Assembly: GCF_013620825.1 (NCBI RefSeq)
Contig: NZ_NJIC01000020.1
Span: forward strand, 1 to 64,000
Direction of reading: 5' to 3'
Source of the DNA: Rhodanobacter sp. PCA2
Lineage (GTDB): Bacteria; Pseudomonadota; Gammaproteobacteria; Xanthomonadales; Rhodanobacteraceae
Length of the DNA stretch: 64,000 bases
A model generated the notes under the pieces. It was given only the letters and a program-made list of their open reading frames with translations. It searched no databases and was not told where the DNA came from. Shown in pieces: positions 5,920 to 17,862 of the stretch (positions are counted from its first letter, which is position 1; each line of letters begins with the position of its first letter). Both the position numbers and the translations under genes were made by a program.

Positions 5920-6435
5920 TCACGGCTGCCCTGGGTGCGAGGTGATGTGCAGCAGGCACTGCAGCAATGCCATTGGCTCGGGTGGGCAACCGGGCACCGT
6001 CGCGCTGACTGGAATGACGTCGCCCACGCGTCCGCGCGTGGCGTAGCTGGTCCCGAAAATGCCGCCGCAGGCGCCGCAATCCCCGACCGCGATCACCCAT
6101 CTGGGTTCGGGCATGACGTCATACGCCCGCTTGAGCGCTTCTTCCATGTTGACGGAAACGGGGCCCGTCACCAGCAGTATGTCGGCATGGCGCGGGCTCG
6201 CCACAAAGGCAATGCCCGCGCCTTCGAGGTTGTAATACGGGTTGGTGAGCGCCTGGATTTCCAGTTCGCAACCGTTGCAGGAACCGGCGTCCACGTGGCG
6301 GATGCGCAACGCGCGCCCGAACACGCGATGGAGATGCTCGTGGATCCCCCGGACGCGGGCTTCGGGCTGGTCGGACTCGGGCGGCGCATCGCTCAATATC
6401 CCGGTACGACGAATGCGCTTGATGATGTTCAGCAT
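5920..6435 (-). CDS. hyfI: NuoB/HyfI-like Fe-S subunit of an Ehr-type membrane complex
   Basis: 171 residues from ATG, 7 bp behind the large-subunit gene, with GGGTGACC as ribosome site. It carries the conserved cysteines of the complex I 20-kDa/hydrogenase small-subunit family: GSCNGCELE (Cys53, Cys56), GDCGACGG (Cys120, Cys123) and VPGCPPEP (Cys150). These would hold one [4Fe-4S] cluster equivalent to N2. There are no extra ferredoxin domains. It is the last gene of the operon and should sit with the HyfG-like protein as the peripheral electron-transfer module at the cytoplasmic face. Electron donor and acceptor are unknown. Confidence 0.85.
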   Translation of the reverse strand: MLNIIKRIRRTGILSDAPPESDQPEARVRGIHEHLHRVFGRALRIRHVDAGSCNGCELEIQALTNPYYNLEGAGIAFVASPRHADILLVTGPVSVNMEEALKRAYDVMPEPRWVIAVGDCGACGGIFGTSYATRGRVGDVIPVSATVPGCPPEPMALLQCLLHITSHPGQP

Positions 6436-6442
6436 CGTGGGG

Positions 6443-7987
6443 TCACCCGTCGTGGCCGCTGTAGGCAAGGTTGAACGACTTATTGATGAGCGGGAAATCC
6501 GGCACGATGTTGCCGATGATCGCGTGGTCGACCGTGGGCCAGTTCTGCCAGGAGGGATCGTGGACGTGGCAGCGCCGGATGGCGGACGGCGCCCCCGCTT
6601 CGAGCGCCACCATGACCGGCCCGCGCCAGCCTTCGACGACACCGAGGCCGATGCGGTCCGAATCGACCGCGGCAACCGGCGCCGACGTCGAACCCTGCGG
6701 CAGTTGTTCGAGCAGCAGCCGGCTCAGCCGCAACGACTCCATGACTTCATCGAAGCGCACCTGGACCCGCGCCGCGACGTCGCCCTCCATCCGCAGCGCC
6801 GCTGTCGGGCGCAGCTCTCCGTAGGGCGCCCACGGCATCGTCACGCGCAGGTCCTGCTCGATGCCCGAGGCGCGCCCCACCAGGCCGAACGCCCCCTGCG
6901 TTTTCGCGATCGATGGGGTGAGTTGGCCGGCGCCCTTGAAGCGATCCTGCAGCCCGGCATGCTCGTCGTAGATCGCACGCAGCGCCACCACGTCGCGTTC
7001 GATGCCGACGCCCTCGTCCAGCAACAGGCGAACCGTGCGCGGTCCCACATCCGACCGCACGCCGCCCGGGACGATGTAGTCCATCAGATAGCGCTGGCCG
7101 AAGACCTCGCGGTTGAGGCGCAGCATCCGTTCCTTCAGCGCCGAGAACTGCGTCAGGCCGAAGGCGAATCCGGCATCGTTGCCCAGCGCCCCCAGATCGC
7201 CCACGTGATTGGCGATGCGTTCGCGCTCCAGTGCCAGTGCGCGCAGGCTGGCCGTGCGCGGCGATACGGTCGCCCCGGCGAGCGCCTCCAGCGCGGCGCA
7301 ATACGCCCACGAGAAAGCCACCGTGCTGTCGCCGCACACCCGTGCCGCAAGCCGGTGGCCTTCCAGCAACGGCAAGGCTTCGAAGCGCTTGGCCACGCCC
7401 TTGTGGGCGTAGCCGAGACGCTCTTCCAGGCGCAGCACCTTTTCGCCGACGACGGAAAACCGGAAATGGCCTGGTTCGATGGTGCCCGCGTGGATCGGGC
7501 CCACCGGAATCTCGTGCACGCCCTCCCCTTCGACGCGCACGAACGGATACGGCCTGGACACGCCGGGACAGGCGGTGGCGGCATCGAAATCCTTGCGCAG
7601 GGGAAAGCGATCTTCCGGCCAGCCGCCATGACGCAGCCACGGGCGTGCATCGCCCTCGTCCGCCCGGATGCCCAGCAAGTCGTGGATCGCCCGCTGCAGG
7701 CGGGCGGCGACGGGAAAGCCGCGTTCCAGCGAGGGATAAACCGGCCGGTCGCCCGCCACGGCAAGCTCCAGAACCACCAGTTCCCCCGGCACGAGAAAGG
7801 CGGCAAACACATGGAACATGCCGTCGCGGTCCCGGTCGTCGGCGCCCCACAGCGTGAACAGGCCCGCGCCGGCTTCCTGCAGCTGCCGGGCGACTGCCGT
7901 CCACTGCTGCGCATCCACCGCCACGCGCCGCGCGGGAACGTTCGCGGGCAATCGCCGGCCCTCTTGCGCAATGAGTTCCAGTGACAT
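6443..7987 (-). CDS. hyfG: HyfG-like large subunit lacking Ni-Fe ligands (Ehr complex)
   Basis: 514 residues. Residues about 1-110 resemble the NuoC-like N-terminal domain fused to a NuoD/hydrogenase large-subunit domain, as in HycE/HyfG. In true [NiFe] enzymes the first metal motif is R-x-C-G-x-C; here it reads RVCGDSTVAF (residues 216-225), with Ser in place of the second Cys. The C-terminal DPCxxC motif is replaced by DPSWQNW (477 onward), followed by a non-cleaved tail. Two of the four Ni-Fe cysteine positions are visibly lost at the C-terminus and one near the N-terminus, so H2 chemistry is not expected. The ends fit energy-converting-hydrogenase-related (Ehr) proteins. It is co-transcribed between the HyfF- and HyfI-like genes. 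Confidence 0.85.
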   Translation of the reverse strand: MSLELIAQEGRRLPANVPARRVAVDAQQWTAVARQLQEAGAGLFTLWGADDRDRDGMFHVFAAFLVPGELVVLELAVAGDRPVYPSLERGFPVAARLQRAIHDLLGIRADEGDARPWLRHGGWPEDRFPLRKDFDAATACPGVSRPYPFVRVEGEGVHEIPVGPIHAGTIEPGHFRFSVVGEKVLRLEERLGYAHKGVAKRFEALPLLEGHRLAARVCGDSTVAFSWAYCAALEALAGATVSPRTASLRALALERERIANHVGDLGALGNDAGFAFGLTQFSALKERMLRLNREVFGQRYLMDYIVPGGVRSDVGPRTVRLLLDEGVGIERDVVALRAIYDEHAGLQDRFKGAGQLTPSIAKTQGAFGLVGRASGIEQDLRVTMPWAPYGELRPTAALRMEGDVAARVQVRFDEVMESLRLSRLLLEQLPQGSTSAPVAAVDSDRIGLGVVEGWRGPVMVALEAGAPSAIRRCHVHDPSWQNWPTVDHAIIGNIVPDFPLINKSFNLAYSGHDG

Positions 7988-7991
7988 GCGC

Positions 7992-9446
7992 CTACCTCAC
8001 GAACAAGTGCGCGGCCAGGCGGTACCACTCGGACAGCGCCGCCGGAATGCTGATGCCCAGTGCCAGCACCAGCCCCAGATGGACGAACACCGGCAGCAGC
8101 GACGGCGGATGCGGCAGCGCCGGCGCCTGCGTTTCGCCGAACACCATCGGCTGCACGCGTCCGAAGATGGCGGCGAAGGCCACGGCCAGCGAGACGAGCA
8201 GGATGGGCGTGGCCCACGGGTGGTCGCGCATCGCCGTCGTCAGCACCAGGTATTCGCTGGTGAAGACGCCGAACGGCGGCATGCCGAGTATGGCCAGCGT
8301 GCCCAGCATCAACCCCCAGCCCACGCTGGGATGGGTGGCGAGCAACCCGCGGATGCCGTCCATGCGCTGCGTGCCGGCGGTCTGGGCCGCATGCCCGGCC
8401 GCGAAAAAGATCGCCGATTTCGTCAGCGAATGCACGGTCATGTGCAGCAGCCCGGCAAAGCTGGCGACCGGGCCGCCCATGCCGAACGCGAACGTCATGA
8501 TGCCCATGTGCTCGATGGACGAATACGCGAACAGGCGCTTGATATCGCGCTGGCGCCAGAGAAAGAACGTCGCCCACACCACGGAGAGCAGGCCGAAGCC
8601 CATCAGCATGCGCCCGGGCAGGTCCGAATGCAGCGCGCCGTCGGCGATGATCTTGCAGCGCAGGACGGCGTAGAGCGCCACGTTGAGAAGCAGCCCGGAA
8701 AGCACGGCCGAAACCGGCGTCGGGCCCTCCGCATGCGCGTCCGGCAACCAGTTGTGCAGCGGCGCCAGTCCCACCTTGGTGCCGTAACCCACCAGCAGGA
8801 AGACGAAGGCCAGGCCGATCACCGTGGGTTCCAGCTGGCCCTTGGCCGCGTCCAGGTGGGTCCACAGCAGCGCGGACATGCCGTTGCCGCCAAGCTGCCC
8901 CTCGGCGGCCACGTACAGCAGGATCGTGCCGAACAGCGCCAGCGCGATGCCGACGCCGCAAAGGATGAAGTACTTCCAGGCCGCCTCGATGCTGGCCCGG
9001 GTGCGATACAGCGACACCAGCAGCACGGTCGAAAGCGTGGCCGCCTCCATCGCCACCCAGAGAAAGCCCAGGTTGTTGGTGGTCAGCGCCACCAGCATGG
9101 CGGCCATGAACAATTGGTACATGCTGTGGTAAAGCCGCAGCCGCCGCTCCGTCAGGCGCCCATGCGCGGCCTCGATGCGCATGTAGGGGCGCGAGAATAC
9201 CGCGGTGGTGAAGCCGACCAGCGCGGTCAGCGCAACCAGGAACACGTTGAACGGGTCGATGAAGAACTGCTCGTCGAACGCGCTGATCGGTCCGCCGCGG
9301 ATGACGCGGACCACCAGCGCCGCCACCGCCAGCAGCGTCGCCAGGCTGATGGCGACGTTGAGCTCGGGAGCACGGCGTTGCGCACCGGTCAGCGCGAGCA
9401 GCGCGGCGCCGACCAGGGGAAAGCCCACGACCAGTGCGATCTCCAC
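7992..9446 (-). CDS. hyfF: HyfF/NuoN-like proton-pumping membrane subunit
   Basis: 484 residues from a GTG one base after the preceding stop, with AAGGAGG inside the end of that gene as ribosome site. It is a hydrophobic polytopic protein of the Mrp-antiporter-like NuoL/M/N family. Conserved channel residues are visible: Glu in WVAMEAA, Lys in GYGTKVGLAPLHNWLPDAH, and Lys in HSLTKSAIFF. These residues carry proton translocation in complex I and hydrogenase-4. It lies in the operon between the HyfE- and HyfG-like genes, 4 bp before the latter. An ion-translocating role is inferred from family; the coupling ion is unknown. Confidence 0.88.
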   Translation of the reverse strand: MEIALVVGFPLVGAALLALTGAQRRAPELNVAISLATLLAVAALVVRVIRGGPISAFDEQFFIDPFNVFLVALTALVGFTTAVFSRPYMRIEAAHGRLTERRLRLYHSMYQLFMAAMLVALTTNNLGFLWVAMEAATLSTVLLVSLYRTRASIEAAWKYFILCGVGIALALFGTILLYVAAEGQLGGNGMSALLWTHLDAAKGQLEPTVIGLAFVFLLVGYGTKVGLAPLHNWLPDAHAEGPTPVSAVLSGLLLNVALYAVLRCKIIADGALHSDLPGRMLMGFGLLSVVWATFFLWRQRDIKRLFAYSSIEHMGIMTFAFGMGGPVASFAGLLHMTVHSLTKSAIFFAAGHAAQTAGTQRMDGIRGLLATHPSVGWGLMLGTLAILGMPPFGVFTSEYLVLTTAMRDHPWATPILLVSLAVAFAAIFGRVQPMVFGETQAPALPHPPSLLPVFVHLGLVLALGISIPAALSEWYRLAAHLFVR

Positions 9447-9447
9447 G

Positions 9448-10113
9448 TCAGTCCTCCTTGAGCGACTCGAGGTGATGCAGGTCCAGGCTGTCGAACTGTT
9501 CCCGGATATGGAAAAAGAACACGCCGAAGATGAAGACGCCGACCAGCACGTCCAGGGCGATGCCCAGCTCCACCACCATCGGCATGCCGTAGGTGGTGGT
9601 GGTCGCGGCAAAGAACAGGCCGTTTTCCAGCGCCAGGAATCCGATCACCTGGGTAAACGCCTTGCGTCGCGCAAGTATCATCAGCAGCGCCAGCAGGATC
9701 ACGGCAAGCGCTATGCCCAGGGTTTGCCGGATCACCGTCGTGGCGAGCGCCGTCACCGGCTGGGCCAGGCCGAAGGCGAAGATCACCAGCCCCAGGCCGA
9801 CCAGCATCAAGGTCGGCACGTTCACCAGCGGCTCGTTGTCCCGCTCTATTCCCAGCCGGCGCATCAGGCGCAACAGGATCCACGGCAGCACGCCGACCTT
9901 CAGCACCAAGGTGAGTACGGCGGAAAAGAACAGGTGCGGCAGGTGGGCGGTCGCCGCAACCAGCAGCGTGGACGTCACCAGCACCGCGCCCTGCCAGATC
10001 AGCAGCGTGACCAGGTGGCGGCTGCGCCGCTCGGCCAGCATCGCGAAGGAGATCAACAGCAGCGCGCCGGCGAGCGTCTGCAGCACCTGGGCGGAGAAAG
10101 TCGGTGCGGGCAT
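9448..10113 (-). CDS. hyfE: Hydrogenase-4 component E-like membrane protein
   Basis: 221 residues, ATG start 3 bp after the HyfC-like stop. It has about seven hydrophobic segments. The C-terminal half contains a NuoK-like stretch with acidic residues in the membrane (LALENGLFFA and MVVELGIALDVLVG), matching HyfE, in which NuoK-like helices are extended. It likely supplies part of the proton path linking the electron-transfer module to the antiporter-like subunits. The position between HyfC- and HyfF-like genes is the canonical hyf order. Confidence 0.85.
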   Translation of the reverse strand: MPAPTFSAQVLQTLAGALLLISFAMLAERRSRHLVTLLIWQGAVLVTSTLLVAATAHLPHLFFSAVLTLVLKVGVLPWILLRLMRRLGIERDNEPLVNVPTLMLVGLGLVIFAFGLAQPVTALATTVIRQTLGIALAVILLALLMILARRKAFTQVIGFLALENGLFFAATTTTYGMPMVVELGIALDVLVGVFIFGVFFFHIREQFDSLDLHHLESLKED

Positions 10114-10116
10114 CGG

Positions 10117-11070
10117 TCAACCCTTCAGCAGCAGGTGCACCAGCAGGCCGAGAACGGCCAGCAGGAACGCCATGGTGAGGAACTCCGGCGCACGGAACAG
10201 GCGCAGCTTGGCCGAAGCGGTCTCGAACAACGCCAGCGCGGCGCCGGCCACCGCCAGCTTCGCGACCAGCGCCAGCATGGCGAGCGCGATGCCGCCCGGG
10301 CTGACGCCGTGCGTGGCGATGCCCCACGGCGCAAACAGCGTGAAGCCGATGCAGGCGTAATTGAACAGCTTCAACCACGACGCCCACTCGATCAGCGCGA
10401 GGTGGCGCGCGGAATACTCCAGCGTCATCGCCTCGTGGATCATCGTCAGTTCGAGATGGGTGGTTGGATTGTCGATCGGCAGCCGCGCGTTCTCGGCCAG
10501 CAACACCATCACGAATGCGACGGCGGCGAACGCCAGGCTGGGATGCAGCGTCACCTGCGACTGCGTCAGCGTGTTCTGCACGATGGCCGGCAGCGCGGTC
10601 GTGCCCGCCATCAGGAACGCGTTGAAAAGCACCATCAGCAGCGCAGGCTCGGTGAGGAAGCCGATCATCATTTCGCGACGCGCACCCATCGTGCCGAAGG
10701 CCGTACCGACGTCCATCGCCGCCAACGCCATGAACATGCGCGCGGTCGCGAACAGGCCCACCAGCGCAATCGCGTCGGCGACGCGCGCCGCCGGCAGCTC
10801 CGTCGTCAGCGAGGGAATGATCGCGGCGGCCAGCACCATGGCGGCGAACACCACATACGGCGCGCCGCGGAACAGCCAGGAGGCGTCGTTGGCCAGCGTG
10901 GCTTCCTTGTGGAACAGCTTTCGCAACACGCGGTAGGGCTGCCACAGGGACGGTGCGGAACGGTTCTGGAGCAGCGCCCTGCACTGCCCCACCCAGCCGG
11001 CGAACAACGGCGCGAGCCCGATGGCGCACAGGCACACGCCAAGCTGCCAGAGATAGACGGCCCACGTCAC
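10117..11070 (-). CDS. hyfC: HyfC/NuoH-like membrane anchor subunit
   Basis: 317 residues from a GTG overlapping the HyfB-like stop by 4 bp (GTGA). Eight or so membrane segments are predicted from the pattern. The family signature ENARLPIDNPTTHLEL is followed by HEAMTLEY, as in NuoH/HycD/HyfC subunits that dock the peripheral arm and form the quinone-side or E-channel region. The overlap implies translational coupling. In an Ehr complex this subunit would connect the HyfG/HyfI-like module to the membrane arm. Confidence 0.88.
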   Translation of the reverse strand: MTWAVYLWQLGVCLCAIGLAPLFAGWVGQCRALLQNRSAPSLWQPYRVLRKLFHKEATLANDASWLFRGAPYVVFAAMVLAAAIIPSLTTELPAARVADAIALVGLFATARMFMALAAMDVGTAFGTMGARREMMIGFLTEPALLMVLFNAFLMAGTTALPAIVQNTLTQSQVTLHPSLAFAAVAFVMVLLAENARLPIDNPTTHLELTMIHEAMTLEYSARHLALIEWASWLKLFNYACIGFTLFAPWGIATHGVSPGGIALAMLALVAKLAVAGAALALFETASAKLRLFRAPEFLTMAFLLAVLGLLVHLLLKG

Positions 11071-13082
11071 AGCACGCACACCAGCAGGAAGATCAGGGTC
11101 AGGAAGCTGTAGAGCAGGTAGACGGACAGCCGCCCGCCCTGCAGTACGGCCATGCGCTCCGTGACCCGTTGCAGCAGGCGCCCGATCGGCTGATAGCACG
11201 CCACCCAGAAGCGGTCCTCGATCTCGATGCGATATGCCGGCGCCACGTCGGACGGCCGGGGCACCTCGCGCTCGATCTTGAAGATCGGGCCGAACAGATG
11301 GCGGATCGGTTGGCCGAACCCCTCCGCGGAATCCTGCATGCGCGGCGTCTGCCACGGGTAGCCGCAGTCCCACGGCGCCGTGCGCCGGCTGCGCCCGCGG
11401 TAGAAACGACGCACCAGCAGGAAGGTCACGCCCGTCACCAGCAGCAAGCCCGCCCAGTACCACAAGCCGCTGTAGGACGCCTGGTTGGCCGCCGTGGGCG
11501 TCATCCACCATGGCGAAGGTCCGCGCTGCGCCGTGGCGCCCACCAGCGCCTGCGTGACGCGGCCGGCGACATCGAGCGCGACCTGCGGGAACGCCCCGAC
11601 CAACACGCAGCCAAGCGCCAGCCAGCCCAGCCCGATCCGCTCCAGCCGGCTGGCGTCGCGGGCCGTGGCCAGGCTGCTCTCGCGATGCTGGCCAAGAAAG
11701 ACCACGCCGTAGAACTTCACCATCACATAGCCTGCCAGCGCCGCCGCCAGTGCGATGACCGCGGCGCCCAGCGGCACGATCATGTCGAGGAAGGCATGCG
11801 GGATATGGGGCGACTGCAGGAAGGTCTGCAGCAGCAGCCATTCGGAGACGAAGCCGTTGAGGGGCGGCAAGCCGGCAATCGCAAGCGAACCGATCAGCGC
11901 GAACGCCGCGACCCACGGCATGCGCCGGATCAACCCGCCCAGCTTGCCGAGGCTGCGCTCCCCGGTGGCGTGCATGACCGATCCGGTGGCGAGGAACAAC
12001 AGGCTCTTGAAGAGTGCGTGGTTGAAGGCGTGGATCAGCACCGCGGCCAAGGCCAGCGCCGCCAGCACGCGCAGGTCGAAGGTGCGGAAGATCAGCACCA
12101 GGCCGATGCCGGCCAGGATCAGGCCGATGTTCTCGATCGACGAATAGGCCAGCAGCCGCTTCATGTCGGTCTGTACGGCGGCAAAAATCACGCCGTACAG
12201 CGCCGTGAACAAGCCCATCACCAGCGCCAGCACGCCCCACCACCACGGGCCGACGGACAGCAGATCCAGGCTCACGCGCAAAAGGCCGTAGATCGCGGTC
12301 TTCAGCATCAGGCCGCTCATCATGGCCGATACCGGCGATGGCGCCGCCGGATGGGCTTCCGGCAGCCATACATGCAGCGGCACCATGCCCGCCTTGGTGC
12401 CGAAGCCGACCAGCGCCAGCAGGAACGCGATGCCCGCCCAGAGCGGCGCGAGCGTCGACGCACGCATGGCGTCGAACGTCATCTGCCAGCTGCCGCCGTG
12501 CAGCACGCCGAAGCACAGCAGGATGCCGAGCGCCCCGACGTGCGCCATCAACAGGTAAAGAAAGCCGGCGCGCCGGATCTCGGGCAAGCGATGCTGGGTG
12601 GTGACCAGGAAGTAGGAACTGAGCGCCATGGTTTCCCAGGCCACCATGAACAGGTAGGCGTCGTCGGCCAGCACCACCATCGCCATGCTGGCGAGGAACA
12701 CGTGGTACTGCAGGCACAGCAGGCCCGGAGCGGTGCCTTCGCCGGCGCGGAAGTAACCTGCCGAGAAGATCGAGATGCCGGCGCCCGCGACACCCAGCAA
12801 CACCAGGAAAAATCCCGAGAGCGCATCCAGCCGTACGTGGAAGGGCAAGTCCGGCAGCCCCAGCGGCAGCACGACCTGCTGCGTCGCGAACGCGGGCATC
12901 AACGACACCACTCCCGCCGCCGCCACGCCCAGGCCGATCAGCGCGCCCAGCGGAAACAGCACACGGGCGACCCAGCCGACGCCGGTCGGGCGCACCAGGC
13001 CCAGTCCGCCCACGAGCAGCCAGCCAGCCACCAGGCCCAGCAAGGCCGTCACCGTCGGCGACGCGGCGGCCCACTCATTCAC
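11067..13082 (-). CDS. hyfB: HyfB/NuoL-like proton-pumping membrane subunit
   Basis: 671 residues from a GTG (GGGAGCGG upstream), first gene of the six-gene operon. It is a large NuoL-type antiporter-like protein with the expected residues: Glu in MVAWETMAL, Lys in GFGTKAGMVPLHVWLPEAHP, and Lys in HALFKSLLFLATG. The C-terminal part (about residue 560 onward) carries the lateral-helix-like extension and the DCGYPW-type segment seen in HyfB proteins. With the HyfF-like gene this gives two pumping subunits. Only a 117-bp gap separates it from a divergent ribbon-helix-helix gene, and that gap contains a palindrome. Confidence 0.9.
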   Translation of the reverse strand: MNEWAAASPTVTALLGLVAGWLLVGGLGLVRPTGVGWVARVLFPLGALIGLGVAAAGVVSLMPAFATQQVVLPLGLPDLPFHVRLDALSGFFLVLLGVAGAGISIFSAGYFRAGEGTAPGLLCLQYHVFLASMAMVVLADDAYLFMVAWETMALSSYFLVTTQHRLPEIRRAGFLYLLMAHVGALGILLCFGVLHGGSWQMTFDAMRASTLAPLWAGIAFLLALVGFGTKAGMVPLHVWLPEAHPAAPSPVSAMMSGLMLKTAIYGLLRVSLDLLSVGPWWWGVLALVMGLFTALYGVIFAAVQTDMKRLLAYSSIENIGLILAGIGLVLIFRTFDLRVLAALALAAVLIHAFNHALFKSLLFLATGSVMHATGERSLGKLGGLIRRMPWVAAFALIGSLAIAGLPPLNGFVSEWLLLQTFLQSPHIPHAFLDMIVPLGAAVIALAAALAGYVMVKFYGVVFLGQHRESSLATARDASRLERIGLGWLALGCVLVGAFPQVALDVAGRVTQALVGATAQRGPSPWWMTPTAANQASYSGLWYWAGLLLVTGVTFLLVRRFYRGRSRRTAPWDCGYPWQTPRMQDSAEGFGQPIRHLFGPIFKIEREVPRPSDVAPAYRIEIEDRFWVACYQPIGRLLQRVTERMAVLQGGRLSVYLLYSFLTLIFLLVCVL

Positions 13083-13143: not shown

Positions 13144-13164
13144 CATGGTAATTTGATTATCATG
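13144..13164. promoter_or_regulatory. Palindrome in the divergent promoter of the hyf-like operon
   Basis: CATGGTAAT and ATTATCATG form 9-bp arms with one mismatch around a TTG centre. It is midway between the HyfB-like start and the ribbon-helix-helix gene start, in the only AT-rich stretch of the gap. It is a plausible operator for the neighbouring regulator (inference). Confidence 0.5.
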
Positions 13165-13199
13165 CAGATCGATTCGTGTGTAAGTTGGAGAGTACTCCC

Positions 13200-13415
13200 A
13201 TGACCATAGAAAATCGCACTGCCCGTCTTACGGTGCTGATCGACCCGCGCAAGAAAGCCGTCTTCGAGCGCCTGTGCACGGCCGAGGACGCGACGCCGTC
13301 CCAGGTCGTGCGCCGGCTTATCCGCGAATACATCGAACGCACCTCCGGCCGCCCCTGGCATGCCGAGGACGAGACACTGCCGCAGGCACGGCACGGCCGC
13401 GCCAGCAACAAGTAG
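13200..13415 (+). CDS. Ribbon-helix-helix (CopG-type) DNA-binding protein
   Basis: 71 residues from the ATG at 13200, with GGAG upstream; a longer in-frame version from 13176 is less likely. A beta-strand (RTARLTVLID) is followed by two helices with the turn TPSQVVRRLIREYIERT, the ribbon-helix-helix pattern of CopG/MetJ-type repressors that bind palindromes as dimers. The C-terminal tail is short and polar. No toxin gene follows, so an antitoxin role is unlikely. Its divergent position beside the hyf-like operon suggests it regulates itself and that operon. Confidence 0.7.
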   Translation: MTIENRTARLTVLIDPRKKAVFERLCTAEDATPSQVVRRLIREYIERTSGRPWHAEDETLPQARHGRASNK

Positions 13416-13650: not shown

Positions 13651-14292
13651 TCAGGGCTGTGTGGCAGGCACCTCGACCCACAGTGCACCGCGCAGGTCGC
13701 CAACACCGAAGCCGGTGGCGCCGTCGGTGGGATAACGGCTTGCGATCATGGCGCGGACTTGTGGCGCAACCTGCGTGCCGTGGCAGGCCAGGCAACCGGG
13801 CTCGGTGGGAATACCGCGGATCATGCGAAGAGCCACCCCCTCGGGCAGTCGTTCGCGCACCACAAGCGCCTGATCCGCCGCCGGCGCACCTTCGGAAACA
13901 GCTTTCTGGAACTGCTGAAGGGCCTCGAGTTGCCAGTCCTTCGCCGCCTGTGCCGGATTGCGGTTGCGCCCGGGCAGCGCGACCCGGCCCAGGCGGACGC
14001 CGTACCGGGACGCCACCTCCTCGGCAATAGCCGGCGCGGCCTCGCTGCAAACCTGCACACCGCTTGCGGGGCCGCCCTTTGCCATGGCGGCTTGCAATGT
14101 CGTCCGCAATCGACTGCTGAACTCCTGCGCCGCGGCTTTCGCACGCTCCAGCGGCACCGTCGCCGCTGTGGACGCAGGGGCCGGTGCAGCGGTGTCGACC
14201 TGGCCGGCCGCGGAGATTCGCGTGCAGAACAACAGGCCCGCGGCAAGAACCGCAACAGGTACAGGCAGGCTCCGTGGCGACAGTGACTTCAT
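13651..14292 (-). CDS. Tll0287-like (DUF3365) c-type haem protein
   Basis: 213 residues from the ATG with a textbook AGGAGG 7 bp upstream. A signal peptide (about residues 1-28, AVLAAGLLF) is followed by an Ala/Pro linker, then a domain with VQVCSEAAP, RNRNPAQAA and a single haem site GCLACHG near residue 180. This is the Tll0287/DUF3365 sensor-like fold, which binds haem c in the periplasm and is implicated in redox sensing. The same frame is open through a second good start at 14487 (GGAGG 9 bp before it), giving a 65-residue N-terminal extension with a GDT repeat. It diverges from the rhodanese group across an AT-rich palindrome. Confidence 0.75.
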   Translation of the reverse strand: MKSLSPRSLPVPVAVLAAGLLFCTRISAAGQVDTAAPAPASTAATVPLERAKAAAQEFSSRLRTTLQAAMAKGGPASGVQVCSEAAPAIAEEVASRYGVRLGRVALPGRNRNPAQAAKDWQLEALQQFQKAVSEGAPAADQALVVRERLPEGVALRMIRGIPTEPGCLACHGTQVAPQVRAMIASRYPTDGATGFGVGDLRGALWVEVPATQP

Positions 14293-14433
14293 GGCAACAC
14301 CTCCTTTCTTCCGTTGTGCGTGGGCGGCATGTGGGGGCAAAACAACCGGCGCCGGTTGTCGCACCAGTCGCGACGGACCGGGGATCGCCGGCTTCACCGT
14401 CAGCAGCTCGTGCAACTCGCATGCTGCGCTCGT

Positions 14434-14466
<33 letters not shown>

Positions 14467-14607
14467 GGGCCACAGGATGTTGGTCATGGCGGTTTGCCTC
14501 CACCGTTGGAGCATCGGCGGCCTTGCCGTGGACGGGCCGCGTCGTTGCCCGATCCGCTTGCCGGTTCATGCCCAACCGGCTTGCATCTATATTAGACATT
14601 AATTATA

Positions 14608-14621
14608 TTAGCGCAAGCTAA
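14608..14621. promoter_or_regulatory. TTAGC-N4-GCTAA palindrome in AT-rich divergent promoter
   Basis: A perfect 5-bp-arm inverted repeat sits inside a 45-bp AT-rich island between the leftward haem-protein gene and the rightward rhodanese group. AT-rich palindromes of this kind are bound by ArsR/BigR/SqrR-type sulfur-responsive repressors, and the rhodanese downstream fits, but no such regulator is encoded nearby. Confidence 0.4.
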
Positions 14622-14639
14622 TTAAATGAATGTGTCGCC

Positions 14640-14885
14640 ATGGTCCGCACCACGAACGGTTTGGCAACCGCCGCGCACCGCTGTGTTCACGGGATTTCCC
14701 CTGCCCTGCCGCAAGGCTGGAACGGCCATGGCCATTGGCAGATCGACCTGCGAAGCACCGCCGATGCCGCGGTTGTCAGCGACCCGAATGCGCCGCTCGA
14801 TCATGAGCGCCGTGGCCGCGACATTGCAGGCGATGCAGTCCTCGCACAACGACCATTGCGCACCGCCACGAAACAACTGAGGTAG
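14640..14885 (+). CDS. Uncharacterised small ORF before the rhodanese gene
   Basis: 81 codons from ATG, ending 9 bp before the rhodanese start, with moderately high GC at third positions. The sequence (HGHWQIDLRST, DHERRGRD) matches no family I know, and there is no clear ribosome site. Another plus frame and a minus frame are open over the same bases. It could be a real small gene in the operon, a leader, or noncoding. Confidence 0.25.
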   Translation: MVRTTNGLATAAHRCVHGISPALPQGWNGHGHWQIDLRSTADAAVVSDPNAPLDHERRGRDIAGDAVLAQRPLRTATKQLR

Positions 14886-14894
14886 GGAGAAGTC

Positions 14895-15266
14895 GTGATC
14901 AGCCTCATCAAGGCCTTGTTTGGCCGCACCGGAGAACAGGTGGGTTCCCAGGAAGCAGTCCGGCGCATCAACGCTGGCGCCGTGCTGGTGGACGTGCGCG
15001 AGCCGAACGAATTCGCCGCCGGCCACGCATCACAGGCGTTGCACCTGCCGCTGGGAAGGATCCGCAGCGAGGGCAGCCGCGCGATCGACGCGCTGGGCAT
15101 ACCGGAAACGACCACCGAGGTGTTGCTGGTCTGCCAGAGCGGCATGCGTTCGCGTATCGCCCAGAGGATCCTGTCCGGTGACTCCCGTCGTCGCTACACA
15201 AACGTCGACGGCGGCATGGCTGCATGGTCCGCCGCCGGTTTTCCCGTTACCCGGCGCAAGCGTTGA
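14895..15266 (+). CDS. Rhodanese-like sulfurtransferase
   Basis: 123 residues from GTG, with AGGTAGGGAG as ribosome site. It is a single rhodanese domain: VLVDVREPNEFAAGH, the active-site loop CQSGMRS with the persulfide-forming Cys near residue 87, and the closing GGMAAW. No signal peptide, so cytoplasmic. It probably transfers sulfane sulfur to a thiol acceptor. It is followed 48 bp later by an AhpD-like gene and is probably co-transcribed. The upstream AT-rich palindrome hints at sulfide- or redox-dependent control. Confidence 0.85.
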   Translation: MISLIKALFGRTGEQVGSQEAVRRINAGAVLVDVREPNEFAAGHASQALHLPLGRIRSEGSRAIDALGIPETTTEVLLVCQSGMRSRIAQRILSGDSRRRYTNVDGGMAAWSAAGFPVTRRKR

Positions 15267-15314
15267 TTGCGTTCGGGCGATCAAGCATCAAGGCAACCCA
15301 GAGGAGTCCATGCC

Positions 15315-15665
15315 ATGACCAAAACTCGCTACCGCGACCTCACCGAAAACACCAATGCGTACCTGGCGCCGCTGCGCCGTGATCTGCCGGACGTCATGCA
15401 GGGATTCAGCGCGCTGGCGCGCAGCGCCCTGGCGGCAGGTGCGGTGGACGCAAAAACCAAGGAGCTGATCGCACTGGCGATCGGCGTAGCCACCCATTGC
15501 GACGATTGCATCGGCTTCCACGCCAAGGCACTGGTGCGATTGGGCGCGACCGACGACGAAGTGCGCGAAATGCTCGGCGTCGCCGTCTACATGGGCGGTG
15601 GTCCGTCGCTGATGTACGCCGCGCATGCCTTGGAAGCGTTCCAGGAGTTCTCCGCAGCGGCCTAG
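15315..15665 (+). CDS. Carboxymuconolactone decarboxylase/AhpD-like protein
   Basis: 116 residues from the ATG at 15315 (GAGGAG upstream); a preceding ATG at 15310 is out of frame. It has the conserved AhpD-type CxxC with following His (HCDDCIGFH, residues about 57-65) and the helical segment ALVRLGATDDEVREML. Small proteins of this family act as peroxidase-linked disulfide reductases or as decarboxylases. With the adjacent rhodanese, a redox/thiol role is more likely here. A palindromic repeat begins 4 bp after its stop. Confidence 0.85.
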   Translation: MTKTRYRDLTENTNAYLAPLRRDLPDVMQGFSALARSALAAGAVDAKTKELIALAIGVATHCDDCIGFHAKALVRLGATDDEVREMLGVAVYMGGGPSLMYAAHALEAFQEFSAAA

Positions 15666-16500: not shown

Positions 16501-17403
16501 ATGGATCGATTCGATGCGATGCGGGTCTTTGCGTGCGTCGTGGAAACGGGCAGCTTCACCAAGGCGTCGGAAACCCTGCATATCAGCCGGGCGACGGCGA
16601 CCCAATTGGTGCAGCAGCTCGAGACACGCCTGCAGGCCAAGTTGCTTCATAGAACCACGCGCAAGGTCAAGGTGACGGTTGCAGGGCAAGCGTTCTACGA
16701 CCGGGTGATCCGACTGCTGGCCGATCTGCAGGAAGCGGAACATGGCGCGTTGGAAGGATCGGACATGCTCGAAGGGCGCTTGCGGATCGATGTGCCCAGC
16801 CCACTGGCCCGTTTGATCCTGGTGCCTGCGCTGGCCGACTTCCACGAACGCTACCCCGGCATCCAGATCGACATGCGGGTCAGTGATCGCACGTCCGATC
16901 TGCTGGACGAGAACATCGACTGTGTGATTCGGGGCGGGCCGATCACCGACCAGACGCTGATCGCCAAACGGGTGGGCAATCTCCATCTGCAGACTTACGC
17001 CGCGCCTGGGTATCTGCAGCGCAACGGGAGCCCCGGTCATCCGAGCGAACTGGATGGGCCCGCGCATCAAATCGTGGGCTATATGTGGGCACACAAGAAC
17101 CAGCGCGTTCCGTATCCGATGCGACGTGGCGAGGAGATCGTCAGCATCCGCGGCAACTATGCCCTTGCCGTCGATGACGGCAACGCTTATCTGGCAGCAG
17201 GCGTGGCCGGGTTGGGAATCGTATGGCTACCAGACTACATGGCCGAACCTTGCACGGCCGAAGGCAGATTGATCCCGTTGTTCACTGACTGGCAACTCGA
17301 TCCCATGCCATTGCATGTCGCTTTCCACCCGAGCCGGCGCGCCGATGTCAGGCTGCGCGCCTTCATCGCCTGGGTGGAGGAGTTTATCGGCGCGACCTCC
17401 TGA
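16501..17403 (+). CDS. LysR-family transcriptional regulator
   Basis: 300 residues. The N-terminal winged helix-turn-helix (about residues 1-60: FACVVETGSFTKASETL, then SRATATQLVQQLE) is followed by a type 2 periplasmic-binding-like effector domain. The closest subgroup by pattern is the LysR proteins with the opening MDRFDAMRVF. It lies divergently from the RidA-like gene and probably controls it. The shared gap contains an AT-rich segment (about 16455-16495) suitable for both promoters. The effector is unknown. Confidence 0.9.
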   Translation: MDRFDAMRVFACVVETGSFTKASETLHISRATATQLVQQLETRLQAKLLHRTTRKVKVTVAGQAFYDRVIRLLADLQEAEHGALEGSDMLEGRLRIDVPSPLARLILVPALADFHERYPGIQIDMRVSDRTSDLLDENIDCVIRGGPITDQTLIAKRVGNLHLQTYAAPGYLQRNGSPGHPSELDGPAHQIVGYMWAHKNQRVPYPMRRGEEIVSIRGNYALAVDDGNAYLAAGVAGLGIVWLPDYMAEPCTAEGRLIPLFTDWQLDPMPLHVAFHPSRRADVRLRAFIAWVEEFIGATS

Positions 17404-17504
17404 TCCGCCCGGCTTCGACGGCATTGCCTTGCCAGCCTTCCGGGGCGAGAGCGCCAGATACAAAAAAACCGGAAAACCGGGGCTTGTTGCAGATCAGGAG
17501 ATCG

Positions 17505-17671
17505 TGTGAGATGTCCGTGCGTCGTCGCCGCAAGGCCAAGCGTCCAGTGGGCGAACACCAGAAGCTGCTGGCAGCGTGCATGCCCAGCCGCCACAGCTTG
17601 CCGCCAGCTGGCGAGACTTCCAAGTACAGGCCGCCCCCGTCGAAGAGACGTTGTGGGACGCCGGATTGCAA
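17505..17671 (-). pseudogene. Remnant of a tyrosine-recombinase integrase N-terminus
   Basis: The minus frame reads RLFDGGGLYLEVSPAGGKLW, the hallmark N-terminal arm-binding (DUF4102) segment of P4-type integrases. After that the frame is disturbed, although GRLALRR resembles the next conserved piece. No catalytic domain is present in the window. It lies about 105 bp downstream of the 3' end of tRNA-Leu, the usual integrase position for an island inserted at a tRNA, so this is the scar of a lost or rearranged island. Confidence 0.65.
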
Positions 17672-17710
17672 TGGATGCCCCCGGACACGGCTGGACAGGC
17701 AGGTAATAAA

Positions 17711-17733
17711 AAACCCGCCTAAGTGGCGGGTTT
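17711..17733 (-). terminator. Rho-independent terminator after tRNA-Leu
   Basis: A 9-bp stem AAACCCGCC/GGCGGGTTT with a 5-nt loop, followed on the minus strand by a T-rich run. It ends the secG-tRNA-Leu transcript. Confidence 0.85.
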
Positions 17734-17777
17734 CCCTAGTCTTTCTGGTCCATTCTGGACGCTTCCGGACTATGCAT

Positions 17778-17862
17778 TGGTGCCCAAGAGGGGACTCGAA
17801 CCCCTACGCCTTGCGGCGCTACCACCTCAAGGTAGTGCGTCTACCAGTTCCGCCACCTGGGC
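17778..17862 (-). tRNA. tRNA-Leu(GAG)
   Basis: An 85-nt cloverleaf with encoded CCA. The acceptor is GCCCAGG paired to CTTGGGC with discriminator A. The anticodon loop TTGAGGT gives GAG. A long variable arm (CGCC...GGCG), as in class II leucine tRNAs, and the T arm AGGGG-TTCGAGT-CCCCT are present. It directly follows secG, a conserved pairing in gammaproteobacteria. It serves CUC/CUU codons and was apparently the attachment site of an island (integrase remnant downstream). Confidence 0.95.

Follow-up and report, generated by a model that had tools for sequence, protein, structure and literature searches.

What can an operon of the hydrogenase-4 type do for a cell when its large subunit no longer carries the ligands of the nickel site? 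This question is raised by six closely packed open reading frames (ORFs), hyfB-C-E-F-G-I, which lie on the minus strand between 13082 and 5920 of the window (the whole 64,000-nucleotide stretch analysed here, positions 1 to 64,000 of contig NZ_NJIC01000020.1) in Rhodanobacter sp. PCA2, whose genome comprises 3,912,255 bases in 62 contigs. hyfB (11067..13082; 671 amino acids) and hyfF (7992..9446; 484 amino acids, GTG start) encode antiporter-like subunits, both found by Pfam and by NCBIfam models over cut-off (hydrogenase 4 subunit B in the case of HyfB). hyfC (10117..11070; 317 amino acids, GTG start) encodes a NuoH/HycD-like subunit, hyfG (6443..7987; 514 amino acids) a fused 30 kDa/49 kDa-type large subunit without nickel ligands, and hyfI (5920..6435; 171 amino acids) a small iron-sulfur subunit with four cluster cysteines, the first recognized by Pfam and the latter two by Pfam and alignment. 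hyfE (9448..10113; 221 amino acids), for a small membrane subunit, is the only one of the six without a Pfam match, its sole family match being NCBIfam PRK11492 below that model's cut-off. The gene order is that given by a first-pass annotation made from the sequence alone, and HyfA, HyfD and HyfH, which it reported as lacking, were not found among the ORFs read in the operon; beyond the operon, the search for formate hydrogenlyase-2 components covered only the alpha subunit of formate dehydrogenase (TIGR01591). The subunits are homologous to those of group 4 hydrogenases and complex I, the large subunit lacks the Ni-Fe cysteines and the redox and pump residues are kept, so that the assignment to the energy-converting-hydrogenase-related (Ehr) complexes holds. 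We consider, with a probability of about 0.55, that the product is a redox-driven ion pump of the Ehr type, used at low oxygen and neither making nor using H2.

The loss of the nickel ligands was located by alignment with HycE and HyfG of Escherichia coli. The first nickel motif, CGIC in E. coli, is C218-G-D220-S221 within RVCGDS, as had been noticed before. The second, DPCYSC, lies opposite N506-L-A508-Y-S-G511 and not, as the first-pass annotation had it, opposite DPSW; the latter (477-480) aligns with the AATYANW stretch of HycE and is a separate conserved element. The claimed loss was thus borne out, but the position of the second motif had to be corrected. At the four ligand positions of group 4 [NiFe] hydrogenases, HyfG carries C218, S221, A508 and G511, three of the four cysteines being gone. 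In 110 rows of HyfG homologues (including some genomes twice, e.g. L033/L005, L056/L012 and L106/L010, two distant members, L031 and L032, and a fragment, L030), these positions hold S78/C24/A7, S101/T6/A2, S85/A17/N5/T2 and G109, and the residues around them are strongly conserved. Judging from the aligned sequences, the nickel-ligand cysteines are conserved nowhere in the HyfG family, and C218 of the window is not characteristic of the family, because serine prevails at its position. Only three residues follow G511, and an assembly peptide like the one of 32 residues in HycE and E. coli HyfG is missing; its role in HycE-type subunits is described in PMC7654741.

A functional [NiFe] hydrogenase, misread here through a sequence error or through unusual ligands, was rejected as highly improbable, since the same substitutions run through the 110 rows and through six plasmid records, those of Cupriavidus metallidurans CH34 and Rhizobium johnstonii 3841 included. 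What favors it is that a Ni,Fe centre has been claimed for Hyq of Azorhizobium (PMC2650096) and that hyp genes occur in the same genome, but the latter are accompanied by a separate hydrogenase. HypD is encoded at 149479-150492 of another contig (C33) among ORFs that we read as hypF, C, E, A and B; RuBisCO lies about 11 kb away, and a gene for the large subunit of a [NiFe] hydrogenase, bearing the motifs RACGIC and CLVC, about 19 kb away. An absence of hyp genes from the genome was rejected on this basis. The first-pass annotation had named hyp genes together with a corrected sequence restoring the four cysteines as what would speak against an Ehr complex; because hyp genes are present, near a separate hydrogenase, but the cysteines are not restored, only the first half was found. 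HypD is recognized in 15 of 197 genomes of the family, PCA2 included, and among the 15 genomes with a close HyfG (52-100% identity; some of them incomplete, e.g. 78, 86 and 87%) PCA2 is the only one to have it, the other 14 showing none. The Hyf complex can do without nickel maturation.

At about 129-160 kb of C33 (L116, L117, L124 and L125), the hyp-like cluster is found close to RuBisCO and Calvin-cycle-like ORFs, the [NiFe] hydrogenase and an NtrC-like regulator, and narG is on the same contig. Among 15 genomes of the genus, HypD or RuBisCO exists in PCA2 only, which is possibly an H2-oxidising autotroph.

With the residue roles of HycE taken from the structure paper on formate hydrogenlyase (PMC9474812), most of the pocket proved to be retained: the proton donor Glu193 corresponds to E171, His284 to H261, Arg395 to R372 and the canopy Arg478 to R455 (each kept in 109 of the 110 rows), and Glu437 to E414 (kept in all 110). 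The position of the canopy Asp529, which that paper describes as strictly conserved, is Asn in 106 rows. The residues of the quinone site of complex I are not found either, I170 standing at NuoCD H224 and G219 at NuoCD Y273. As far as residues can tell, the strongly conserved HyfG pocket is neither a hydrogenase site nor a quinone site of the ordinary kind. A fold predicted with 34 of 41 sequences (seven were left out, one of them with an internal stop) has a mean predicted local distance difference test score (pLDDT) of 80 and a predicted template modelling score of 0.86; its best structural match is HycE (Z 42.4, root-mean-square deviation 2.9 over 488 residues) and its second is NuoCD of E. 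coli complex I (Z 38.9, deviation 3.1 over 481 residues).

The cysteines of the electron-transfer subunit, which the first-pass annotation had described as kept, are indeed so: C53, C56, C120 and C150 of HyfI are found in every relative reaching each position (79, 79, 78 and 77 of 79 rows). The pump subunits were compared with NuoM at what we take to be E144/K234/K265/E407 in its numbering, the letters of which were checked by alignment. To these correspond E150/K230/K261/E414 in HyfB, retained in 62, 63, 55 and 66 of 66 relatives, and E134/K224/N255/E398 in HyfF, retained in 72, 71, 71 and 74 of 75, which agrees with the earlier statement that both subunits keep their Glu/Lys residues. These residues suggest that ion pumping would be intact. 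The same two Mrp-like subunits with conserved Glu/Lys would also suit a non-redox cation/proton antiporter that balances pH or salt, in line with the pH homeostasis suggested for Methylacidiphilum ehrABCDLS (PMC6688271), and several loci come from records titled after peat or mine-tailings-like sources, which we read as habitats. However, the four cluster cysteines of HyfI and the strongly conserved pocket of HyfG argue against a complex without redox function, and we regard this alternative as quite unlikely.

Based on a scan for relatives, at least 572 were confirmed and the best 80 loci were fetched. All six genes exist in the same order and on the same strand in 65 of the 80 by a count made by eye, the remaining 15 being cut at the locus end, and because of this conservation the arrangement is not due to chance. 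The closest named relatives among the matches listed are Dyella nitratireducens and Rhodanobacter. Clustering of the flanking ORFs of the 80 loci gave 15 clusters present in at least four loci, of which ArsR- and ribbon-helix-helix (RHH)-type regulator genes adjoin the operon and the others occur at scattered places (as we name them, spermidine-synthase-like in nine loci, Mrp/ApbC-like in six and metG-like in five). No gene for a redox partner or electron donor recurs beside the operon in these clusters, and a linked electron donor was rejected, since none of the recurrent clusters resembles a redox partner. In accordance with the earlier claim, an electron-input module is neither encoded in the operon nor recurrent nearby.

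A formate dehydrogenase encoded elsewhere might still dock on HyfI and make the complex a formate-oxidising respiratory pump. In this direction point the Ehr subunits of Geobacter, reported as most abundant on formate (PMC7894505), an association of formate dehydrogenase with Ehr proposed for cyanobacterial relatives (PMC6349859) and a role in formate metabolism proposed for Hyf of Acidithiobacillus ferrooxidans (PMC7735108), together with an FdhF/YdeP-like and an FdhD-like ORF, so named by us, on C33 (267 bits to TIGR01591, below cut-off). However, no formate dehydrogenase gene was found among the operon ORFs or the flanking ORFs of the fetched loci, and TIGR01591 exceeds its cut-off in 79 of the 197 family genomes but in only three of the 15 with a close HyfG (p 0.17). 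A link to formate is therefore improbable in our view, about as much so as the antiporter.

HyfG-like matches were found in 34 of the 197 family genomes and in four of the 15 of the genus, and their distribution offers a hint of the conditions of use. narG is present in 8 of the 15 genomes with a close HyfG versus 22 of the 170 counted as the rest, a group that includes seven of the 34 genomes with HyfG matches (p 5.6e-4, phylogeny ignored). In the genus of Paraburkholderia sartisoli (G203, L081), the figures are 32/54 versus 28/90 (odds ratio 3.2, p 0.0016, phylogeny again ignored), and the RuBisCO control gave 37/54 versus 57/90 (p 0.59); in the genus of PCA2 alone they are 3/4 versus 2/11 (p 0.077). 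The association with narG in two clades is suggestive. HypD, the alpha subunit of formate dehydrogenase and RuBisCO showed no significant co-occurrence with the close HyfG group among the 197 genomes. In a group of 12 genomes with HyfG of 43-46% identity, HypD (5/12) and RuBisCO (7/12) are enriched, which we read as a clade effect because nearly all of the 12 belong to one genus. HyfG proteins of 43-48% identity (L018-L029, mostly from one genus) have SxNGxYAG in place of SFNLxYSG, and several of these genomes carry a second large subunit, 30-36% identical; this is possibly another subclass.

The association with narG would also suit a small sulfur or nitrogen compound as acceptor, comparable to sulfane sulfur in the case of the related archaeal MBS, whose chains (6u8y) match HyfG, HyfC, HyfF, HyfB and HyfI by sequence. 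A ferredoxin-type subunit is missing here, and we think such an acceptor rather unlikely.

The space between hyfB and its divergent neighbour suggests how the operon may be controlled. A gene for an RHH regulator (13200..13415, plus strand; RHH_9 by Pfam, 71 amino acids) is separated from hyfB by a palindrome (13145..13163), a putative operator with the consensus ATGATAAT-N3-ATTATCAT, recognized by motif comparison among relatives; neither was mentioned in the first-pass annotation. A pattern scan placed a promoter-like CTTACA-17-GATAAT on the minus strand (13156..13184), the -10 element of which overlaps the palindrome; one such site was found against 0.6 expected in shuffles, so that it is weak alone, and a similar promoter spacing was seen by eye in relatives. 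A motif scan of the 59 of the 80 loci with upstream DNA placed a divergent RHH gene in front of hyfB in 22. At up to two of 16 mismatches, the palindrome is found in 12 of these 22 regions, from which its consensus had itself been drawn, as against none in 200 shuffled sets (L106, with its RHH gene about 1.3 kb away, was left out), and its distance to the RHH gene is equal (47-49) in 11 of the 12. At the same threshold the 3.9 Mb genome of PCA2 contains one site, and the reversed control none. In 15 other loci of the 80, an ArsR-type gene stands in front on the operon strand, with zero overlap with the RHH set, and in rhizobial clusters the neighbouring regulator is of the Xre type. The simple reading would be a dedicated repressor that occludes the promoter. 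None of the papers listed by a literature search for ribbon-helix-helix proteins with hydrogenase-4 or hyfB mentioned ribbon-helix-helix, and none of those listed by a further search mentioned Rhodanobacter; so far as these searches showed, the regulator and its palindrome are apparently not in print.

The Ehr kind of complex and the six-gene order are already known. The hyfBCEFGI cluster is in print for Cupriavidus, including C. necator H16 (PMC2864759), for Acidithiobacillus ferrooxidans, whose HyfG was called a non-hydrogenase (PMC7735108), and for Nitrospira (PMC5596200; as Ehr in PMC10284858), the likeness of the H16, At. ferrooxidans and Nitrospira clusters to the window resting on published descriptions, not on sequence. 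Ehr complexes have also been reported from Geobacter (PMC7894505), Methylacidiphilum (PMC6688271), cyanobacterial relatives (PMC6349859) and mycobacteria (PMC6728331), and as late as 2023 their function was described as unknown (PMC10284858). Mycobacterial Rv0081-Rv0087, likened to the window by description, is called Ehr, has an ArsR-type regulator gene in front, as have the 15 loci above, and belongs to a hypoxia regulon (PMC6728331, PMC6177252). The hyf/hyc systems of E. coli (hydrogenase-4 and formate hydrogenlyase) have subunits B, C, E, F, G and I and the large-subunit fold in common with the window operon, but hyf has A, D and H in addition. Respiratory complex I shares the NuoCD, B, H and L/M/N-type subunits and the His, Arg and Glu of the proton path, whereas the window operon is without the NADH module (NuoEFG) and has the quinone His and Tyr and the canopy Asp replaced. 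A NuoD-like gene exists elsewhere in the PCA2 genome, outside the operon.

Of 80 plasmid records that matched, six among the 60 listed were fetched (L138-L143), two of which bear no annotation and were judged by alignment only. The six genes recur in unchanged order in C. metallidurans CH34, with a HyfG 55.6% identical over the match and S, S, S and G at the four ligand positions; its RHH homologue lies upstream on the operon strand, whereas that of the window is divergent. R. johnstonii 3841, R. leguminosarum GLR17 and Bradyrhizobium sp. Ash2021 have a regulator followed by BCEFGI, with HyfG 43-45% identical and, unlike the window, an Xre-type helix-turn-helix regulator. Ser, Ser, Ser and Gly at the ligands with Asn at the canopy Asp are found in these three as well as in Sinorhizobium fredii GR64, Azospirillum thermophilum and CH34. 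In database records, the large subunit of such clusters goes by different names: NADH-quinone oxidoreductase subunit C, nickel-dependent hydrogenase or HypE. The rhizobial layout is that of hyqRBCEFGI of Azorhizobium caulinodans, a seven-gene operon described in 2009 as strongly induced at 2% O2 under NifA, whose deletion slowed diazotrophic growth and orthologues of which were named in R. leguminosarum and B. japonicum (PMC2650096). Because rhizobial clusters of this layout lack all nickel ligands, the deletion phenotype may, if HyqG is alike, be that of a nickel-free Ehr complex. A crude pattern scan upstream of the rhizobial regulators found no sigma-54 match in the three loci examined and a single NifA-like match, in one of them.

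In the redox-driven pump that we favor, electrons from a diffusible low-potential donor, no subunit for which is encoded, would be taken up by the iron-sulfur cluster of HyfI and handed on to an altered HyfG pocket, where something other than protons would be reduced; a quinone bound non-canonically is the leading guess for this acceptor and holds about half of the probability. The reaction would drive ions through HyfC/E/B/F, the divergent RHH repressor would hold the operon off via the one palindrome over the -10 box, and the operon would serve mainly low-oxygen or nitrate-respiring life. Several points weigh against this account. Residues 146-195 and 507-514 of the HyfG model, which include the decisive pocket loops, have pLDDT below 50, and the replacement of the quinone His and Tyr and of the canopy Asp, as read from the alignments, argues against an ordinary quinone site. 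Four families, narG among them, were put through co-occurrence tests that ignore phylogeny; narG is not enriched in the group of 43-46% identity (1/12), and it is present in just five of 14 genomes of fetched loci, a set that overlaps with the first test (in L033, L056 and L106 at least) and with the second (in L080, L081, L094 and L108). The palindrome is missing from 10 of the 22 regions bearing an RHH gene. Furthermore, Hyq has been interpreted as an H2-oxidising, H2-recycling hydrogenase with a Ni,Fe centre (PMC2650096).

The surroundings of the operon are less constant than the operon itself. Of nine neighbouring genes of the window, none accompanies the operon in the loci compared, apart from weak matches (29-37%) to SDR, LysR and RidA, and the operon therefore seems to have moved as a unit. 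Genes of the Tll0287-like, rhodanese and carboxymuconolactone-decarboxylase types (13651-15665), upstream of the RHH gene, are likewise not beside the operon in relatives. At 17384-17862, a tRNA-Leu adjoins a fragment resembling an integrase arm domain (23.3 bits, below the Pfam cut-off), a possible old island border; a second tRNA-Leu end was not found within the window.

A broader proposal, unlikely as we judge it, is that these complexes form an Ehr subclass of their own that is widespread among soil bacteria living by respiration. Its pocket would accept a substrate that is neither H2 nor quinone (e.g. a small nitrogen or sulfur compound), the complex would pump ions at low oxygen, and each clade would place it under a small regulator of its own (RHH, ArsR or Xre); rhizobial Hyq would be included, and its H2-recycling interpretation would be wrong. 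Ehr complexes are intermediate between hydrogenases and complex I, and with at least 572 relatives they are common. The pocket signature, a regulator with one genomic site, the lead towards nitrate and low oxygen and a hyq phenotype that likely exists already would make the question of what they do testable in laboratory strains, among them C. necator H16 with its reported six-gene cluster (PMC2864759).

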